Below, one piece after another: positions 42,384-51,160 of a stretch of DNA of 51,160 bases. Origin of the DNA: an uncultured bacterium (GTDB lineage: Bacteria; Patescibacteriota; Minisyncoccia; Moranbacterales; UBA2206); NCBI GenBank assembly GCA_903937035.1, contig CAIZXS010000003.1, forward strand, positions 1 to 51,160, read 5' to 3'. Each line of letters begins with the position of its first letter. Positions within the stretch are counted from its first letter, which is position 1. The position numbers were made by a program, and so were the translations under genes. Below the pieces are notes generated by a model. It searched no databases. It had not been told where the DNA came from and saw only the letters and a list, made by a program, of their open reading frames with translations.

Positions 42384-43580
42384 CTATGGCTTGACAGCTT
42401 TACTCGCATTTACACTACTCTCAAAATCATTTTTTTCACCATCAAAAACATTTCTCAAATTACCCCTCACTTCGTCATATCTTTTGAAATATTTTTCTTC
42501 GGCCACCGCCTTGCAGCTTGGGGAGACTTTCTCTTCCACATTAAGCATAAAACTCGCCTCTTCAATGTTTAGCATCATCAGGCATTGATTATATTTCAAA
42601 ACTGCTGCTGATACATCGTAAAGCTGCTCTACGCCACTTTTCACCGCAAAGTCCATCTTATTCAGCATATTTTCTTGTTGTTGAAAAATGGCTTCAAAAT
42701 CTTTTTCATTTTTAACCGAGGAATATTGCCCATCTCCCGCTTCAGCGATTTTTCTCAATTGATCTTCCGTAGCGCCTCCCACATCAAAACCAATCACATT
42801 AACTTTAATATTTAAACCGGCGCTTTTTATTCCTTTAGTAACAGCAATTGGATCACCATTGCAAGTTTCTTCGCCATCACTCACCAATATAATGATATTT
42901 TTATCTTCTTTTGATGCTTTTTTTAGTAAAATGTCCTTGGCCGCTTCCAGAGATTTAGCGATTGGTGTCCAGCCCGTTGCGCTCAAGCTATTGAATTTTG
43001 ATTTAACAATATCCGGACTAATTATTCCAAACCAATAAACTTCTTCAATTCCCGCGCAAGAAACTGCCTTATCACCAGGACTATTGCTTCCTTTGTGTCC
43101 ATAAACCAAAACGCTAAGATTTGATTCGGTATTCTTTATGTTTTCAATAAATTTATTGGTCGCATTTTTGGCAATATCAATTTTGGATTTTCCGTCTATT
43201 TTAGCCGCCATACTTCCCGACGAATCAAAAATCATCACGATATTGGTTTTGGTTTTTTTCACTTCCGCATCTTTGAATTGTCCGCTTCTAAAATTTCCTT
43301 GCGCGCAGAGACTTTCGTCCAATTTATTAGCAGAAAGAAGTTTTTCATATTCGGAATCGCAAGAAGAAATCATTTTCTCAAGCGAGCCAGGGAGAAGACT
43401 TTTTTGACTATCTTTGCCAACTCCGCCCCTCATAAGTGCTACATAAAAAAATATGGAAGTGGCGGCCAAAATCAAGATGATAGCGGAAATCAGCACGACG
43501 CGTTTCTTCTTACTCTCTCTGGTAAAAGAAGCATCTGAACTGAGATTATCTTCAGGTACTTTTTGAAAGTTATTTTCCAT
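42384..43580 (-). CDS. Membrane-anchored VWA-domain protein
   Basis: 398 residues. A single TM (about 28-49) follows a cytoplasmic N-terminus. The extracytoplasmic part has a von Willebrand A domain with a full MIDAS: DSSGS in VMIFDSSGSMAAKI, TP in SATGWTPIAKSLEAA and a later Asp in ILVSDGEETCNGDP. It likely binds a metal-dependent protein or surface ligand. The C-terminal 120 residues are helical. It follows the GQ-repeat gene by 4 bp and ends with the terminator at 42334; part of the envelope cluster with the alpha-2-macroglobulin. Confidence 0.8.
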   Translation of the reverse strand: MENNFQKVPEDNLSSDASFTRESKKKRVVLISAIILILAATSIFFYVALMRGGVGKDSQKSLLPGSLEKMISSCDSEYEKLLSANKLDESLCAQGNFRSGQFKDAEVKKTKTNIVMIFDSSGSMAAKIDGKSKIDIAKNATNKFIENIKNTESNLSVLVYGHKGSNSPGDKAVSCAGIEEVYWFGIISPDIVKSKFNSLSATGWTPIAKSLEAAKDILLKKASKEDKNIIILVSDGEETCNGDPIAVTKGIKSAGLNIKVNVIGFDVGGATEDQLRKIAEAGDGQYSSVKNEKDFEAIFQQQENMLNKMDFAVKSGVEQLYDVSAAVLKYNQCLMMLNIEEASFMLNVEEKVSPSCKAVAEEKYFKRYDEVRGNLRNVFDGEKNDFESSVNASKAVKP

Positions 43581-43584
43581 TTTT

Positions 43585-44232
43585 TTATTTATCTTTATTT
43601 ATTAGATCGGTCGCGTCCCATTTAACGCCGTCTGCGCCCTGATAATCGACCACTTGTCCACCATTATCGCTGGTCCATTTTTCCGATCCATCGGTATAAT
43701 CCAATATCTGACCATTATTGGTGCTTTCCCATTTCCCCTGAGTACCTTCATATTTCAATATCTGTCCGAGATTATCGCTCTTCCAGATATTCCCTCTTCC
43801 ATCATCATATTTGAGGACTTGGCCACTGTTATCACTGTTCCATTTTTCTAATCTGCCAGCATAAGTCAATAGCTGTCCACTATTAGTACTTTCCCATTTA
43901 TGACCTTTCTCATCGGTGCAGGTTATCATCTGTCCATAATTATCGATGGTCCAGTTGCCCTGCTTGCCATCATATTCCAACGTCTGTCCGCCATTAATAC
44001 TCTTCCAGCAACCACCAGTATTGCAATATTCTCTAGACTCACCGATAAGTTTTACTGCGCTTTCGATTTTGCCTTGCATCTTATCTATCAATACTATGAA
44101 AGAATTATTTTCCGTTTTCGTCTTTCCTCCTTCCCAATTTTTTTCATCTTGAGCAAAAACAGAATACGAAAAACCACTAGCTAGAAAAACTACGCCAAAA
44201 AAAATGCTGACAATTATTTTTATTTTCTTCAT
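43585..44232 (-). CDS. Secreted GQ-repeat protein
   Basis: 215 residues. Signal peptide 1-27 (IIVSIFFGVVFLASGFSYSV), then from about residue 70 at least seven tandem units of 19-23 residues with W-x-S/I-x-N-x-GQ-x-L-x-Y (for example WKSINGGQTLEYDGKQG, WESTNSGQLLTYAG, WKSDNLGQILKYEGTQG, WESTNNGQILDYTDG). The spacing suggests a beta-solenoid or small propeller. Unrecognised family; it may bind a glycan or protein partner. Precedes the VWA gene by 4 bp, so the two surely work together. Confidence 0.65.
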   Translation of the reverse strand: MKKIKIIVSIFFGVVFLASGFSYSVFAQDEKNWEGGKTKTENNSFIVLIDKMQGKIESAVKLIGESREYCNTGGCWKSINGGQTLEYDGKQGNWTIDNYGQMITCTDEKGHKWESTNSGQLLTYAGRLEKWNSDNSGQVLKYDDGRGNIWKSDNLGQILKYEGTQGKWESTNNGQILDYTDGSEKWTSDNGGQVVDYQGADGVKWDATDLINKDK

Positions 44233-44328: not shown

Positions 44329-44773
44329 CTATTCTCTTCCAATACAATTCTTCATTCCCCTTAGTTTTGTGCAGCCATTGAAGCAGTAGACGTCTTGGCA
44401 AGTGTGCCTGGCACAGTCCGAGTCATCGGATTTGCAAGTTTCTATGGTTCCAATTGTGATTTTGGCAGTAGAATTTTTGCTGCAACTTGATCCTTTGACT
44501 TACAGGATGGGAAGATGGGTGTCATCCTTGGTGTAGATGCAGATGAAGGAATCATTGACAGTATTTGATTGGAAATAGTTCCTCCTTGTCCGCAGCCGAG
44601 GTTATTGTATTTAATTGGTCCAAAAGCAGCGCCGACAGTTGCTTTAGGATTGGTGGTGAGTGGAGCCTTAGCTGCGCTGGCCGACTGCTTTTGCACAGCT
44701 TATTTTTACCTGTCAAAAGACAACACAAAAAAGCTCCTAAGATAGAATCCTGAAAAACTCGTAAATATTTCAT
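44329..44773 (-). pseudogene. Frameshifted Cys-rich secreted protein
   Basis: Pieces of one protein lie in three frames. Frame 1 begins at 44773 with a signal-like start (MKYLRVFQDSILGAFLCCLL). A second frame gives QSASAAKAPLTTNPKATVGA and runs on to a stop at 44442. A third gives ETCKSDDSDCARHTCQDVYC and then FNGCTKLRGMKNCIG, ending at 44329. The last part matches the Cys-rich C-terminus of the gene at the right edge of the window. At least two frameshifts are needed, so the gene is broken or the assembly is wrong. It starts 11 bp after the MEMO gene. Confidence 0.6.
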
Positions 44774-44784
44774 AAACAGTCAGT

Positions 44785-45690
44785 TCACTCCTCTGGAAAA
44801 AAACCCAACTCAAAATGACTCGTTCCCGGCGCACTTTCCTTTCCCTGCATTAAGCCAGAATTAGTGTGGCGAATCATTTCCAGCGCATTCTTTCCTCCAG
44901 TTCTTTCTTCCACAAAACTCAAAACGGCAATGAGCGCATCAGGAGAATCAAGATGATCATTTCCATATGACTCCAACAAGCGATAGTCTTTTTTTCCGAT
45001 AGCTTCCAATGTCTCTTGGTCTTTTTGATTTGATCTCTCAGTGGAAAGGTAATGTGAAAAATCAATTGAGCCAACCACGATCGTCCTTTCTCCGGCTAAC
45101 TGAGCAATTTTTTTGCCCAATGCCTTCGCATCATTCAGTGTCAGATTGGCACTCAAGGCCAAGGGCACAATCTTAGTTTTAGGCAAAAAATACTTGGAAA
45201 ACGTTGTGAGAGAATACACCGCATGTTCATTTTCAAGCGATTCTTCATCAAGCACCGCCACACCATTTTTCACTAGTGTGTCCACCAGTTCCACGTCTGT
45301 TTCCAAATTGCCAAATGGAGTGCCCCATGCATATTTTCCTGTGATAACTCGACCCTTTCCTGTTTCCGCATGATTTGGACCAATAATAATGATCGTTGCT
45401 GGTGGATTTTTTGAGTTTGAAAGGGCCGAAAAAAATTCCGCCAAGGATGCTGCTGCAAGCAAGTGATGAGGAACAACCCCGCCCACAACTTGCTTTTCGA
45501 CAAAGATTTTGGTCTTTTCATCTGAAGGAAAAACCTGCACCAGCTCCGGTTGAATCACGCGATCAGCGTGAACACCAAGCACTGACCGATCATTTTCTTT
45601 TTGAATGGCGTGTCGCCCTGAGAAAGAAAATGTCCAGAAAAAACCAATGGCAAATAAGGCCAAGAGCAGAGCTAATGATACCCTTTTCAT
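44785..45690 (-). CDS. MEMO-family protein (AmmeMemoRadiSam system B type)
   Basis: 301 residues. An N-terminal TM/signal (about 5-24) is followed by the MEMO domain. Candidate metal ligands lie in VVPHHLLAA, IIGPNHAETG and SIDFSHYLS; ENEHAVYSL is another conserved stretch. The C-terminal motif of Memo that supplies a Cys is here HTNSGLMQG. Memo proteins are metal-dependent redox or dioxygenase-like proteins; the bacterial role is unknown. The TM makes this one extracytoplasmic. Its ATG overlaps the alpha-2-macroglobulin stop by 4 bp, so the two are coupled. Confidence 0.8.
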   Translation of the reverse strand: MKRVSLALLLALFAIGFFWTFSFSGRHAIQKENDRSVLGVHADRVIQPELVQVFPSDEKTKIFVEKQVVGGVVPHHLLAAASLAEFFSALSNSKNPPATIIIIGPNHAETGKGRVITGKYAWGTPFGNLETDVELVDTLVKNGVAVLDEESLENEHAVYSLTTFSKYFLPKTKIVPLALSANLTLNDAKALGKKIAQLAGERTIVVGSIDFSHYLSTERSNQKDQETLEAIGKKDYRLLESYGNDHLDSPDALIAVLSFVEERTGGKNALEMIRHTNSGLMQGKESAPGTSHFELGFFPEE

Positions 45691-48600
45691 ACTTGGGTCT
45701 TTTTTTCAATTTCTGCTTTTTCCACGCCAGAAGAAGAGTCCACTTGGCTTTTCACACCCTGATTCCCGAGACTCTTTTGTTTGCGATTATAATACATCCA
45801 CCCGCTAATTCCGCCACCAATCAAAAGTGAGAGGAAGATTAGAAGAATGAAAAATACTACCTTGTCGCCGATAACTTTTTTAAAAGATGTCCCAACGATT
45901 GATTTATTACTTTTAACATCTATTTTCAATTGGCCCGTTTCTGAAATGCCATACACTTCGGGAGAATACATTAAAGCTGCCTGAGCTGGCGGAATAAAAA
46001 ATGATCCAGCCGACACCACTCTCGCCGAATACTCATAGACACTTTGATTGCTACCATAGGCCGCAAACGTAACATCGGCCTTCCCAATCTCCATTCCATA
46101 AGGAACATTCATGCCAAACATACCAGCAACGCCCTGGGTATTTTTGAACTCGCGATTAACCGGGACTAACCCCGCTGGAAGCTCATCCCTTACAACCAGA
46201 TAATCATTTATCTTGGATTGATTTTCAATCTTAATGCGCACAGTAACGGTGTCACCAATTCCAATATTACTCTTGCCTTTTTCTGGAATATATTCGCGCG
46301 TAATTTTTATCCCCTTATACTCCGCTGCGGCATTTTTCTTTGTCCTAAATTCATCCAGCACTGCCACTAAATAGGCCTCCCCACTACCAGACAACTTGAT
46401 GGAAAGTGCACCCTTTTTGACTGGCAAATCCTTCAGTGGTATTGAAATTTCCTTTCGATCACGAAAATCATTCACTAAGTCTTTTGCAATCATTTTTTCT
46501 CCCGCAAAAAGCTGATAAGAATAATTCGGATTCGCTCCACCGTTCTTTTGTGTGAATGCAGTGATCGCTTCAATCACCTGCGCAGTGGCAAAAGTATTGG
46601 ACCAATAATTCTTCTGACGATTATTCGCCAAAAAGCGAGCCGCTTTTTCTGCCGCACCACTATTGTCTCCCGCGGTAATTAATGCCTGAAGCGCAAAGGC
46701 AGTTGAGGCATCATTGCTTCCGAAGCGACTCCGCGGACCAGCCTCCCAATAAACTCCACCGGAAGAATCGACTTTTTGAAGTGCGAGAAGTTGACTGAGT
46801 CCATTTTGCGCCGGGTTTACAAAACCATTTTTGACGTTATGCGAGACCGCTATCGCTAATAATTCCGGACGAACGCCAGCTAAGTCAAAAATAGCTGATT
46901 GATCATTTCCAATATATCCCAATCCGGAAGTACGTAAAATCTGACGCTCTTTCACAAGCACAGCTTTTTCCTGCTCATTTTTTCCTACAAAAGCCTGCTC
47001 AGACCAGCGGAAATCGCCACCCTCCAAATAGCCACTTAATTTATTAGCCACCTCATTGGCTAAGTTCCTATCCTCCTGCTTCAAATCTGGCACGCTCCAG
47101 ATCCCTTCCAAATATCTCGCCACATACCAGGAAATAAATGGATCACTTCCATCTTTCCACCACCAAGAGAAGCCACCATTTTCCAATTGATGCTCCCTCA
47201 GACGCAAAAGCCCCTTATGTATAAGCTCGGGCATGTCCTTATTCTCCAAAGCTTTCTGATACAAGTCCTTATTCTTTTGTGCCACAACCACAGGCACTAA
47301 GCGACTCATTGTCTGTTCGATGCAACCATAGGGATAGCTAACCAAATATTCCATCGCGTCTGGAATCGTGCCAAGGAGATTAGGCGCCAGAGAAACTTTC
47401 AAGGTTGATTTTTCCGGATCAGCGTCATCTGAAAATTCATAATTTGCGGCGACCTTATCGCTTCCCACAAAGGAACGCGATACGCGATACCCAGCCGAAT
47501 AGACTGGCGCGGCTAAAGTAACCTTGTCCGAATTGCGCTCGTCCCTACCTGTGGCTGAAAAAATTAACTCAGCCGCTTCTAACTCCTTTTCCGGTGCAAC
47601 TGTGAAATAGATTTCTTTTGATTCTCCGCTATTCAATTCAATTTTCTGATTCGTTCCTTTCACTACCTTGCCACCAGAAAATTGCAGATTAGCCAAATAG
47701 GAACCCTTCTCGCCTGAGAAGTTCTGCAATAACGCCGAGAGAATCACTTCATCCCCTATCCGGAAAATATTTGGTAAAATTGGGCGCAAAATTACACTTT
47801 TTGTAACCTTAACCTCTTTGGTTGCCTGACCAACTTTACTATCCTTTGTTTCGGCATAACTCGCTAGAACCCAAGTAGTTAAATTATCCGGCAGACGAAA
47901 AGTTACCCGAGCCTTTCCATCAGTGCCAGTGCGAATAGCTGGATTCCAATATGCCGTATCGCGAAAAACCGAACGTCCTCCACCACCCTTATCGTTATGC
48001 ACCCAAACACCACCGGCGAAAAAAGTATGCTGATCTTTAATGGTCAGATTATAGACATTCGTTTTTTGCCTCAACCACTCAATCGAATCCACTCGCTCCT
48101 GCGTGCCATCAGATTTGACCAATTGATCACCAACTTGAATGTTTCCAGCTTCCTGCCATTTATCATTCACAAACATCCGATGAGTTGGAGTCACTCGCAA
48201 ATCACCATTGATAATCAAAATGCCATTTACACTCAAGGCGTGCGTGCTAACGACTGAGGCTGGCACCAATTCTGCATCAGTTTCACTTTTTCTTGTTAGC
48301 ACCAGATCCCCTTCTTGGATATCTTCAATCGATTTTTGCTCACCATCGGGAAGCAATACTGGCGTTCCAGCTGCAAAACAGCCACCACGCTCCGCGCCAT
48401 ATGCAACAATGCCCTTTAATGAATGAGATTCTTGGGTATCATTGTAACGTTCCCGATAAAAATCCTCGAAAATATTACCAGTCTGACTGTCCGATAATTC
48501 ATAGATTGCCTTATCAACCCCAAAAAGCGCCACATCCGCTTCAAGCGGAGCACCTTTCTGATCTCTCGCTTCAACCTCAATTGAAATATCATCTCCAGGT

Positions 48601-50882
48601 CCATAAGTCTCGCGATCAGGCTTAATTTTCAAATCAATTCGCTTTTTTTCCGCTGATACCAGAATTTTTTCTTCACTATGATAATATTTCCCATTGGCAA
48701 AAGTTGTTGCAGAAATGAATCGATTTGGCATGTCCACATCTGACAGATCAAACTCGATTGTTTTAGAACGACCACTCAAGTTAATAATTTGATAGCGATC
48801 CATCCGACCTCTTTCAACGGACACAAATACATCGCGATTGGGCACATTAGAAGAAATTGTTACTCGCGCTTTCTCGCCAGGTTCATAGCTTTTCTTATCG
48901 GCTTTAATAATAATTCCCTGGTCAGTTCCTTCATTGTCATCCGAGAAGGAATAGAAAAAGCCGTTCTCCTCTGGAACCCAAAGCCACACCTCACGATACA
49001 CCGAGTTGCCTCGCGCATCCACCGCTTTCACATTGTATTGATATGATCCTGGCTTGTCAGGCACAAAAGCCAATAGCACATTCCCATCCTTATCAGAAGT
49101 AGCCTTTATTTCTGGCAACGAACTACTATTTCTCTTGTAGCTAAGAGGCGTGTCTTCTGTTTCACGAACCTCATCCCAATACTCTCGCTCTCCGGTGGCG
49201 CTAACTGCAATATTTTTTACAGATGTATTTTGGGCATATGGAATAATCGTCAGAGGAATCTGGGCTTTTTCTCCAATTTTTGCCGCATAGCTCCAATCAT
49301 TGCTCTTGCGGTAAATGCCAAAATCACCAGCATACATGAGCACGTTCTTGCGATCAAAAACCGGTTCACCCCCACCTTTTTCAAAGTTAACCTCGAAAGA
49401 AACAACTTGATTTCCAACTGCCCCATCAGGAACTTGCGCCACAACAACAATCTCTGCCTCGCCATTTTGATCAAGCACCACTTCTGCATCTGAAACTAAC
49501 CGCCCAGCATACCCTCCATAATATTGATATTTGCTGTTGAGCGCATTTTCCTTGCTATCCAGATAATCATACTCGTAAAAATTATTTGACTTTACCATAT
49601 AAGTCACCTTTTCTCCACTCAAAGCTTCTCCAGAAAAATATTCTCCCTTGATGGTAAAATGCATCTCGTCTCCAACAATATAGACATCCTTTTCCGGCTT
49701 AATGTCCAAACTATATTCTGGTTTGCGAAATTCTTGTACACTAAAATTTGCCTGAGTATATCCGTCATTTTCATCGGAACTACCCTCGCGCTTAATGGCT
49801 AAATAATATTCACCCACTTCCACATCCGGTGGAAGACTGAAAGTATCATCAATCGTCCCATACTCCGAAAGTGTTAACGTCTTTTCATAGACCATTTTTT
49901 TGTCCTCTCCCCAGCCAGAAAAAACACTAACTCGCGCCTTGCCTGAAACAATCGAGTAGGCGACATCGTCATCATTACGCAAAATTGATTTGAAATGCAC
50001 AATGTCTCCTGGACGATAAAGTGGACGATCAGTGAAGGTGAAATATTTTGGATCGACCACTTTTTCTTTAAATACTGACCAACGATAATCAAGAGAAGTT
50101 AAATTGAGAGGTATAAGAGCCAAATCTGAACCATTCCTCAGAATGGCCACATCGGCCTTTTCATCAATTTTCGTCTCAGCGATTCCCATTGAGTTAGTTT
50201 TCAATTCGTCTAGCTTGTCCACTTTTTCTCGTAGATTAAAAGTAGTCAATGAAACGTCCGAGAGACTTTTTCCGCTAGAACGATTCTGAGCCCAAAAAAC
50301 TAATTTTCCATCTCCCTCTTTCACTAAGGCGGAAAAATCTGAAACCAAAAGAAGCGCCTCAGTCTGCACATCACCTTGTTTTATTTGCACGATCCAAGCC
50401 CCAGTTTCCGCAATCGGCAAAATAACTTTACGACGTTCTTTGCTGACAATATTTTCCGAAAAATTTGCAACGGACGCATAGCCATCGAGATTAGAAAAAT
50501 CATTTTTTTTCTCAAAACCACTATCCTTATCCTTATATATCAAAAAGTTTTTAAGCGCGTCTTCATCGCCGCGATAGACAGAGACATTGACTTCCCCACT
50601 CACATTATCGCTTTGAAGCCAAATCGAAGGCTCCGCACCTTTGGCCAGCGAAAAAAGACCGTTTGATCCTTGATTTTGATCATCACGAAAAATATAGAGT
50701 CTTTTGATTATTTTCTCCTTTCCCAATACCTCCCCAGAATCAGCCGAGACGATTGGTTGGCTATTTTTTTGCATAATCACCCAACCAGTCATAGACAAAA
50801 AAAATGCCACCAAGGCAAAATAAATAAACTTTTTTTTGTTAGCTTGCTTTTTTTGTTCACCCTCAACTAATTCTTTTTTCAT
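45687..50882 (-). CDS. Alpha-2-macroglobulin with embedded Hint (intein-like) domain
   Basis: 1731 residues. An N-terminal TM/signal anchor (about 17-37) is followed by macroglobulin domains with YRPGDIVHFKSI and PGEKARVTISS. A Hint domain occupies 835-963, then FRDTAYWNPAIRTGTDGKAR and LPDNLTTWVLASY. A thioester motif GCIEQ has Cys1187 and Gln1190, followed by the helical thioester domain and a C-terminal TM (about 1674-1697). Bacterial A2M traps proteases through the thioester. Most homologues have no Hint domain. They are often paired with PBP1C; here the partner is a MEMO protein. No Shine-Dalgarno. Confidence 0.92.
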   Translation of the reverse strand: MKKELVEGEQKKQANKKKFIYFALVAFFLSMTGWVIMQKNSQPIVSADSGEVLGKEKIIKRLYIFRDDQNQGSNGLFSLAKGAEPSIWLQSDNVSGEVNVSVYRGDEDALKNFLIYKDKDSGFEKKNDFSNLDGYASVANFSENIVSKERRKVILPIAETGAWIVQIKQGDVQTEALLLVSDFSALVKEGDGKLVFWAQNRSSGKSLSDVSLTTFNLREKVDKLDELKTNSMGIAETKIDEKADVAILRNGSDLALIPLNLTSLDYRWSVFKEKVVDPKYFTFTDRPLYRPGDIVHFKSILRNDDDVAYSIVSGKARVSVFSGWGEDKKMVYEKTLTLSEYGTIDDTFSLPPDVEVGEYYLAIKREGSSDENDGYTQANFSVQEFRKPEYSLDIKPEKDVYIVGDEMHFTIKGEYFSGEALSGEKVTYMVKSNNFYEYDYLDSKENALNSKYQYYGGYAGRLVSDAEVVLDQNGEAEIVVVAQVPDGAVGNQVVSFEVNFEKGGGEPVFDRKNVLMYAGDFGIYRKSNDWSYAAKIGEKAQIPLTIIPYAQNTSVKNIAVSATGEREYWDEVRETEDTPLSYKRNSSSLPEIKATSDKDGNVLLAFVPDKPGSYQYNVKAVDARGNSVYREVWLWVPEENGFFYSFSDDNEGTDQGIIIKADKKSYEPGEKARVTISSNVPNRDVFVSVERGRMDRYQIINLSGRSKTIEFDLSDVDMPNRFISATTFANGKYYHSEEKILVSAEKKRIDLKIKPDRETYGPGDDISIEVEARDQKGAPLEADVALFGVDKAIYELSDSQTGNIFEDFYRERYNDTQESHSLKGIVAYGAERGGCFAAGTPVLLPDGEQKSIEDIQEGDLVLTRKSETDAELVPASVVSTHALSVNGILIINGDLRVTPTHRMFVNDKWQEAGNIQVGDQLVKSDGTQERVDSIEWLRQKTNVYNLTIKDQHTFFAGGVWVHNDKGGGGRSVFRDTAYWNPAIRTGTDGKARVTFRLPDNLTTWVLASYAETKDSKVGQATKEVKVTKSVILRPILPNIFRIGDEVILSALLQNFSGEKGSYLANLQFSGGKVVKGTNQKIELNSGESKEIYFTVAPEKELEAAELIFSATGRDERNSDKVTLAAPVYSAGYRVSRSFVGSDKVAANYEFSDDADPEKSTLKVSLAPNLLGTIPDAMEYLVSYPYGCIEQTMSRLVPVVVAQKNKDLYQKALENKDMPELIHKGLLRLREHQLENGGFSWWWKDGSDPFISWYVARYLEGIWSVPDLKQEDRNLANEVANKLSGYLEGGDFRWSEQAFVGKNEQEKAVLVKERQILRTSGLGYIGNDQSAIFDLAGVRPELLAIAVSHNVKNGFVNPAQNGLSQLLALQKVDSSGGVYWEAGPRSRFGSNDASTAFALQALITAGDNSGAAEKAARFLANNRQKNYWSNTFATAQVIEAITAFTQKNGGANPNYSYQLFAGEKMIAKDLVNDFRDRKEISIPLKDLPVKKGALSIKLSGSGEAYLVAVLDEFRTKKNAAAEYKGIKITREYIPEKGKSNIGIGDTVTVRIKIENQSKINDYLVVRDELPAGLVPVNREFKNTQGVAGMFGMNVPYGMEIGKADVTFAAYGSNQSVYEYSARVVSAGSFFIPPAQAALMYSPEVYGISETGQLKIDVKSNKSIVGTSFKKVIGDKVVFFILLIFLSLLIGGGISGWMYYNRKQKSLGNQGVKSQVDSSSGVEKAEIEKKTQV
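47994..48380 (-). other. Hint/bacterial intein-like domain within the alpha-2-macroglobulin
   Basis: 129 residues. It starts at Cys835 (CFAAGTPVLLPDGEQ, block A) and has a TPTHRMFV block B near residue 900. It ends with HTFFAGGVWVHN (residues 952-963) followed by Asp964. The His-Asn end followed by a residue other than Cys/Ser/Thr fits bacterial intein-like (BIL) type A domains, which cleave or splice without a nucleophile at +1. No endonuclease is present. Gly-rich linkers (GAERGG and DKGGGG) flank it. It sits between the end of the first macroglobulin block and the A2M domain. Confidence 0.88.
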
Positions 50883-50917
50883 TTTATTTGATTATTTAAT
50901 TATTTTCCAAAATCTCA

Positions 50918-50945
50918 TGCACTCCGTGGCTTACCATGGAGTGCA
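50918..50945 (-). terminator. Hairpin between the Cys-rich gene and the alpha-2-macroglobulin
   Basis: TGCACTCCGTGG and CCATGGAGTGCA pair with one mismatch. There is no clear T-run, so it may be an attenuator or RNA-stability hairpin rather than a terminator. Confidence 0.4.
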
Positions 50946-51019
50946 AAAATTAAAATTACGAAACATGCCTACAACAGCTTTGCCGCGCCACATAATTAAA
51001 GAAGTGGCTACTTACAATT

Positions 51020-51160
51020 CTACGGACAATTCTTCGTCCCCTGCTTTTTCACACAGCCATCAAAACAAACAATGTTTTTGCAGGTATGTGCAGCGCAATC
51101 TGGATCATCAGGTTCACAGACAGCTTCTGTTCTTTGGGGAGCTTCTGGATCTATTGTTGC
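51020..51160 (-). CDS. Cys-rich secreted-type protein, C-terminal part only
   Basis: The last 46 residues of a protein entering from the right edge, ending at the TAG at 51020-51022. The sequence ends CEPDDPDCAAHTCKNIVCF, then DGCVKKQGTKNCP, with six cysteines (pattern C-x6-C-x4-C-x4-C-x3-C-x8-C). It matches the C-terminus of the broken gene at 44329-44773. It lies 137 bp upstream of the alpha-2-macroglobulin on the same strand. The N-terminus is outside the window. Function unknown; a disulfide- or metal-stabilised small extracytoplasmic domain is likely. Confidence 0.65.
   Translation of the reverse strand, partial: ATIDPEAPQRTEAVCEPDDPDCAAHTCKNIVCFDGCVKKQGTKNCP

Follow-up and report, generated by a model that had tools for sequence, protein, structure and literature searches.

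A macroglobulin with a Hint domain at its bait site and an adjacent membrane-anchored MEMO-family protein in Patescibacteria

What does a bacterial macroglobulin with an intein-like Hint domain in the middle of its chain do, and which of its neighbours does it work with? The question is raised by a locus in an uncultured bacterium of the order Moranbacterales (Patescibacteriota; GenBank assembly GCA_903937035.1; 1.22 Mb in 26 contigs). The window analyzed here is the entire 51,160-bp contig CAIZXS010000003.1 (C3). On its minus strand, read from the right, lie the C-terminus of a cysteine-rich (Cys-rich) gene (last 46 codons), an alpha-macroglobulin (A2M) gene, a MEMO-family gene, the relic of a second Cys-rich gene, a GQ-repeat gene, a VWA gene and hrcA, followed by what are presumably grpE-like and dnaK genes. 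Pfam profiles were assigned in the A2M protein (MG2, A2M_BRD, PT-HINT, A2M, TED and bMG10), in its neighbor (Memo) and in the VWA gene (VWA), with no match in the GQ-repeat protein; the scan also covered HrcA, short of the grpE-like and dnaK genes. A preliminary description had taken the five kinds of gene from Cys-rich to VWA as one multi-protein surface system, with a Cys-rich partner that may interact with the A2M or its Hint domain. The gene order, the common strand, the 4-bp overlap of the A2M and MEMO genes and the 4-bp spacing of the GQ-repeat and VWA genes were all confirmed from the open reading frame (ORF) list and Pfam. The system itself proved smaller: the Hint-containing A2M (Hint-A2M) and the MEMO protein form a real, recurrent two-gene unit, a well-supported pairing that is the conserved core of the locus, whereas the Cys-rich, GQ-repeat and VWA genes do not recur with it.

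An A2M match was found in 44 of 383 genomes of the class and in three of 34 genomes of the family, the window's included, the other two being distant. Four full-length homologs in the class besides the window's (G256, G356, G341 and G150; 33–38% aa identity) have the Hint at the same place and a thioester motif, and each is immediately followed by a MEMO gene. So are seven more Hint-A2Ms, those of clade B (about 1830 aa in the complete ones); in five of the seven the MEMO is fused to a CapA-like (PGA_cap) domain (L047 being the one scanned with Pfam). PF00207 exceeded its cut-off in 28 genomes of the 383; a Hint is present in 12 of them and missing from 16 (absence checked by profile in seven and deduced for nine from the split match around the Hint). 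A membrane-anchored MEMO gene was adjacent in 12/12 Hint-A2Ms, whereas a Memo match occurred on the same contig in 0/16 Hint-less A2Ms, a contrast of about 3e-8 by simple counting that ignores relatedness. The A2M gene precedes the MEMO gene in this class sample, with an overlap or a short gap and a single exception with a gap of 162 bp. The A2M-MEMO pair singled out in the preliminary description is thus a recurrent one.

The search was extended with an alignment of the Hint junction (A3) as query, a single A2M protein having found no relatives. It gave 80 loci in named genomes, of which the best 41 carry a Hint and come from Moranbacteria, Daviesbacteria, Microgenomates, Peregrinibacteria, WOR-1 and others; among the remaining 39 loci (38 Hint-less and one without an A2M ORF) none had a MEMO gene. 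A phylum sample of 379 genomes gave matches in 54, 20 of which were examined. All sources merged at 95% identity yielded a wider set of 58 Hint-A2Ms, picked by similarity and not at random, in which MEMO was adjacent in 34 (one upstream), absent in 16 and undecidable at a contig edge in eight, that is, adjacent in 34 of the 50 assessable cases. As a side observation, the Hint-A2M of a Daviesbacteria locus (L199:3498-8772) is split into two overlapping frames ahead of the MEMO gene. A record labelled Micavibrio sp. (L204) holds a Patescibacteria-type A2M-Hint-MEMO locus, apparently on the same contig as G341:C7, and its label looks wrong.

The position of the Hint within the macroglobulin was determined by alignment with E. 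coli YfhM, where the first Hint residue (Cys1) falls beside residues about 938–940. In the protease-cleaved E. coli A2M structure the bait, Arg923-Leu942, is disordered, and Phe947-Asn963 binds again once the chain is cut (PMC4498604). Since Cys1 falls within the disordered 923–942 stretch, the Hint is placed in the bait loop, a placement well supported by sequence comparison; Hint-less relatives show a short Gly-rich loop at this position. The complement proteins C3, C4 and C5 belong to the same superfamily, and the TED region of the window A2M matches C4 chains. The activation cut of complement lies between the BRD and PF00207 domains, and C3 has its anaphylatoxin domain at the stretch where the Hint-A2M has its Hint.

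The best PDB match of the Hint region was the bacterial intein-like domain 2LWY (E 7e-9). Cys1, the TxxH motif and the C-terminal His-Asn were found in 12/12 sequences of A3 and in 56/56 readable Hint copies of the 58 (L237, masked, and L326, truncated, being excluded), and many different lineages share both the insertion point and the full set of catalytic residues. The residue at position +1 is not C, S or T in 55 of the 56 copies (Ser in L198; Asp in the window), and canonical intein splicing is disfavored because this nucleophile is missing. With an N-terminal Cys, TxxH in block B, a C-terminal His-Asn and no +1 nucleophile, the domain agrees with type A bacterial intein-like (BIL) domains and with the PT-HINT domains of polymorphic toxins. 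The latter are placed before the toxin tip, whereas here the Hint sits mid-chain, inside the macroglobulin bait loop.

Type A BILs, according to a review, form an N-terminal thioester and cut after the terminal Asn, with ligation possible and cleavage products dominating (PMC4031507). Because type A BIL residues sit at the protease bait site, the Hint probably cleaves the A2M chain itself, at the point where a protease would spring the trap, and a self-processing bait is the most likely mechanism, at roughly even odds. The Hint could alternatively excise itself and religate its flanks to leave an ordinary macroglobulin, or be an inert passenger, in either case with no role as a trigger. Type A BILs are indeed able to splice without a +1 nucleophile (same source), and Hint-less relatives manage without a Hint in the loop. 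We consider this unlikely, given the dominance of cleavage products in type A BILs, the conservation of insertion point and catalytic residues, and the agreement, within the class sample, between Hint status and presence of the MEMO partner, which would be unexplained if the Hint were a passenger.

In its remaining domains the window protein corresponds to a type I bacterial A2M, with MG2, BRD, A2M, TED and bMG10 all above the Pfam cut-offs. The type I proteins (E. coli YfhM/ECAM and Salmonella A2M, with PbpC) share with it the MG, BRD, A2M and TED domains, one adjacent partner gene and, in the window's clade, the GCxEQ thioester (GCIEQ in the window; CxEQ in 5/5 members of clade A). They differ from it in that here there is a Hint in the bait loop, a C-terminal transmembrane segment and MEMO instead of PbpC. 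The clade B Hint-A2Ms (CxEQ in 0/7) lack the thioester motif, as does the type II protein MagD of the six-gene Pseudomonas mag operon (PMC5764988), and differ from it by the Hint and the MEMO partner. In the wider set GCxEQ was counted in at least 12/58, a lower bound because some ORFs are partial or split.

The MEMO partner carries an N-terminal hydrophobic helix and was assigned to its family by the Memo profile (PF01875; 91 bits, cut-off 27) and a match to NCBIfam TIGR04336; a phmmer search of the PDB with the sequence alone found nothing, and a 26-row profile found MEMO1. Its AlphaFold model (predicted local distance difference test, pLDDT, 88.5) aligned with MEMO1 over 256 residues (Z 27.8; root mean square deviation 2.6) and, with Z between 15 and 20, with extradiol dioxygenases and related proteins. 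The iron ligands of MEMO1 are given as H49, H81 and C244 in extracts of PMC11081632. In the profile alignment, with positions counted by hand, H81 corresponds to H107 of the partner, D189/H192 to D210/H213 and C244 to D248, while H49, just outside the alignment, would correspond to H75 from a shared PH motif. H75, H107, D210 and H213 of the partner are thus conserved with respect to MEMO1 and AmmeMemoRadiSam system protein B, but the His-His-Cys ligand set of human MEMO1 is not, the Cys244 position being Asp248. This position is Asp in 67 of 68 rows and Cys in one (rows not de-duplicated), as against Cys in 4/4 canonical MEMOs. With Asp248 in place of Cys244, a two-His-one-carboxylate metal site like that of non-heme dioxygenases is predicted. 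The partner further differs from the canonical proteins by its N-terminal anchor and its separate clade: in a tree of 58 MEMOs, the anchored and canonical forms were split at 100/100. It is operonic with the Hint-A2M rather than with a radical SAM gene; neither AMMECR1 nor radical SAM was among the genes adjacent to MEMO (A2M, GQ-repeat and VWA), the rest of the genome not being searched. The nearest tree rows of the window MEMO belong to WOR-1 and Microgenomates, in agreement with horizontal spread.

Anchored MEMOs also occur away from A2M. Among 20 such loci (leaving out L115, L118 and L134, where MEMO is near a contig end), 11 had MEMO next to a protein ending in EWGG, five next to a DUF3160 protein (four by Pfam, one by inspection) and four next to others. 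Since anchored MEMOs also pair with DUF3160 and EWGG-family proteins, MEMO is a reusable surface module, and an exclusive service to the Hint becomes less credible. This invites the view that MEMO, often fused to PGA_cap, is a general envelope or capsule module serving several unrelated large partners, in which case its link to Hint-A2M would say nothing about Hint chemistry; at L210, moreover, a Hint-A2M without MEMO is followed by a stand-alone PGA_cap gene. Such a view is possible but doubtful, as the MEMOs linked to Hint-A2M group together on the tree (4 label changes, where shuffling gave 18.5), though not as one clade, and Hint-less A2Ms of the same class were never found with a MEMO partner.

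Several of these proteins merit a record of their own. The MEMO-PGA_cap (CapA) fusion is a recurring two-domain architecture (L047:7417-9189 and L122:6414-8258). DUF3160 proteins of 800–860 aa are operonic with anchored MEMO in Patescibacteria (L114:5389-7950, L123:7846-10257, L131:8035-10512 and L133:8476-11049); DUF3160 is mentioned as a secreted enzyme in a passage of PMC4158269. The EWGG-ending proteins form a large, unannotated, secreted-looking family with a terminal GFTVVEWGG-like motif (L117:9199-11040, L121:2684-4498, L128:7486-9135 and eight more), without a Pfam match in the three scanned, and are the commonest partner of anchored MEMO away from A2M loci.

Upstream of the Hint-A2M, a gene for an extracytoplasmic function (ECF)-type sigma factor was found directly adjacent in 12 of the 58 non-redundant loci, with 35 lacking one and 11 undecidable at contig edges; the profile behind this count was built from nine of the sigma genes, all of which carry sigma-70 regions 2 and 4 (Pfam). 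The A2Ms next to sigma genes have longer N-terminal tails, with tens of residues ahead of the membrane segment. These upstream genes and longer tails suggest that some Hint-A2Ms report to the cytoplasm, and a transmembrane signaling arrangement is possible at the sigma-adjacent loci. Taken as the general explanation, the Hint-A2M would be a transmembrane sensor whose bait cut, by itself or by an external protease, is relayed through the N-terminal cytoplasmic tail to the ECF sigma factor encoded upstream. This is improbable for the group as a whole, the sigma gene being absent at those 35 loci and the window A2M having a short N-terminal tail and a Cys-rich gene as its upstream neighbor.

The best overall explanation, to which we assign a probability of about 0.5 from the sequence and model comparisons, is a two-gene, membrane-anchored macroglobulin system with a self-processing bait and an extracytoplasmic MEMO metal enzyme. 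The bait loop holds a Hint with intein-type residues, normally lacking the nucleophile for canonical splicing, which would render the bait self-processing. It may cut at Cys1 (through the thioester), behind the terminal Asn, or at both sites, so that no external protease is needed to spring the macroglobulin, and the chain cut would expose the GCxEQ thioester in those forms that have one; alternatively, the Hint may keep the loop armed, to be released by a conformational or chemical signal. The usual downstream partner, an anchored MEMO-fold protein of a separate clade whose gene overlaps or abuts that of the A2M, may act as a metal enzyme on the reactive groups of the macroglobulin or on captured material, the likely purpose being protease defense or capture at the cell surface. 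A more elaborate version is tentative and, as a whole, rather unlikely: the Hint would replace the external protease as trigger, its Cys1 thioester might bond a captured target covalently in GCxEQ-less forms, comparable to the transfer of cargo to cholesterol by the Hint of Hedgehog, the anchored, dioxygenase-like MEMO would gate the reactive site or quench it, and the ECF sigma factor, where present, would relay the event inwards.

Four observations weigh against the two-gene, self-processing system. No MEMO is adjacent in 16 of the 50 assessable Hint-A2Ms; many Hint-A2Ms, including all of clade B, lack the thioester; the Hint and its flanks were modelled at a mean pLDDT of 69.7 only; and related anchored MEMOs stand beside DUF3160 and EWGG proteins, so that neither Hint nor A2M is an exclusive partner of MEMO.

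The remaining genes of the window (Table 1) were examined as possible members of the system. The C-termini of the two Cys-rich genes, which had been said to align, match at 53% over 34 aa (E 1.8e-10 in a whole-genome search), and they are the only strong copies in the genome. The right-hand gene is cut by the assembly and incomplete, since the window is the whole contig. The left-hand one had been described as broken by at least two frameshifts: one is supported by homology to other Cys-rich proteins in two different frames (with an in-frame stop inside the second stretch), and a second, suggested by a signal-peptide-like start in a third frame, is plausible but unproven. A profile built from the two rows found the family at E < 1e-5 in four same-genus genomes (G002, G003, G004 and G005); all six other genomes of the genus lack a relative of the window A2M. 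In the class sample, the remaining 11 genomes with a Hint-A2M gave no convincing Cys-rich match, the best having E 0.017 across 15 residues. G005 has a Cys-rich C-terminus immediately upstream of hrcA, with no A2M alongside; in G004 and G001 the gene preceding hrcA is one we take to be mltG-like. Full-length Cys-rich relatives look secreted (for example, one in L172 of 839 aa with 46 Cys). The same profile found many copies, several per protein, in G433, where the C-terminal module matched 24 times and one ORF (L179:215-3850) has 114 Cys.

Because genomes of the same genus that lack this A2M contain the Cys-rich family, and its matches in the 11 other Hint-A2M genomes of the class are unconvincing, the Cys-rich genes are unrelated bystanders rather than partners of either the A2M or the Hint, and the partner hypothesis was rejected. 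From their distribution and the hrcA contexts, the A2M-MEMO pair looks like a local acquisition next to a genus-typical Cys-rich gene, its flanking by two Cys-rich copies therefore looking accidental; in composition the A2M-MEMO stretch does not stand out. Of the 119 other genomes of the order, three have the GQ-repeat protein (encoded in G030 on different contigs from the A2M), and no VWA or GQ-repeat neighbor was found beside the four close A2M homologs. The preliminary description had held that homologous A2M genes lacking these neighbors would show the arrangement to be accidental; comparison of the neighborhoods gave this result for Cys-rich, VWA and GQ-repeat genes, with MEMO alone conserved. 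One surface system built of all five kinds of protein, for which the local gene order, the common strand and the hydrophobic N-termini of the GQ-repeat, VWA, MEMO and A2M proteins (by inspection) might speak, is thus refuted as a conserved unit and very improbable overall, physical interaction in this strain being possible.

Table 1. Features of the A2M-MEMO locus in the window and, in the last row, sigma genes at other loci (locus:positions).
Feature	Position	Strand	Basis
Alpha-macroglobulin with inserted Hint, 1731 aa; N-terminal hydrophobic and C-terminal transmembrane segment	45687..50882	-	ORF, Pfam, full-length homologs
A2M_BRD (PF07703), residues 659-796, immediately ahead of Hint	48495..48908	-	Pfam
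Hint (type A BIL-like), residues 835-963: Cys1, TPTH, VHN then D	47994..48380	-	Pfam, alignments, PDB match
A2M (PF00207) segment, immediately past Hint	47709..47957	-	Pfam
CIEQ thioester motif of TED, residues 1187-1190	47313..47324	-	Sequence motif
Membrane-anchored MEMO-family protein, 301 aa; predicted metal site His75/His107/Asp248	44785..45690	-	ORF, Pfam, profile, model
Decayed Cys-rich gene (relic), outside the A2M-MEMO unit	44329..44770	-	Frames, homology
Cys-rich gene C-terminus cut by contig end, outside the A2M-MEMO unit	51023..51160	-	Homology
GQ-repeat protein, bystander	43585..44232	-	ORF, Pfam
VWA-domain protein, bystander; then hrcA, grpE-like and dnaK genes	42384..43580	-	ORF, Pfam
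ECF sigma genes upstream of Hint-A2M	L219:6551-7105, L223:4615-5139, L228:6499-7053, L309:4691-5221, L313:1291-1902, L317:11115-11690, L318:11182-11841, L325:1273-1887, L213:6351-7121		

As far as our literature search reached, the A2M-Hint/MEMO pair is an undescribed, widespread variant of the bacterial macroglobulin. No paper containing both "hint domain" and "macroglobulin" was found in the openly available literature searched, an earlier description in subscription journals being possible; the terms macroglobulin, MEMO and "HINT domain" do not occur in PMC3482391, and a match to macroglobulin, MEMO and Patescibacteria held an A2M structure only among its references. In Vampirococcus, of the Candidate Phyla Radiation, A2M domains are mentioned as a possible protection against host proteases in a part of PMC8080830.

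Macroglobulins, complement included, are known as traps that fire when a protease cuts the bait loop; a widespread branch bearing an intein-like domain at precisely this site would represent another way of arming or firing them. A defined partner makes the so far unexplained function of extracytoplasmic MEMO proteins testable, and the associations of Hint, MEMO and ECF sigma factor give clear predictions. Cell-cell interactions of Patescibacteria are little understood, and for these bacteria the pair offers a concrete, expressible surface system.

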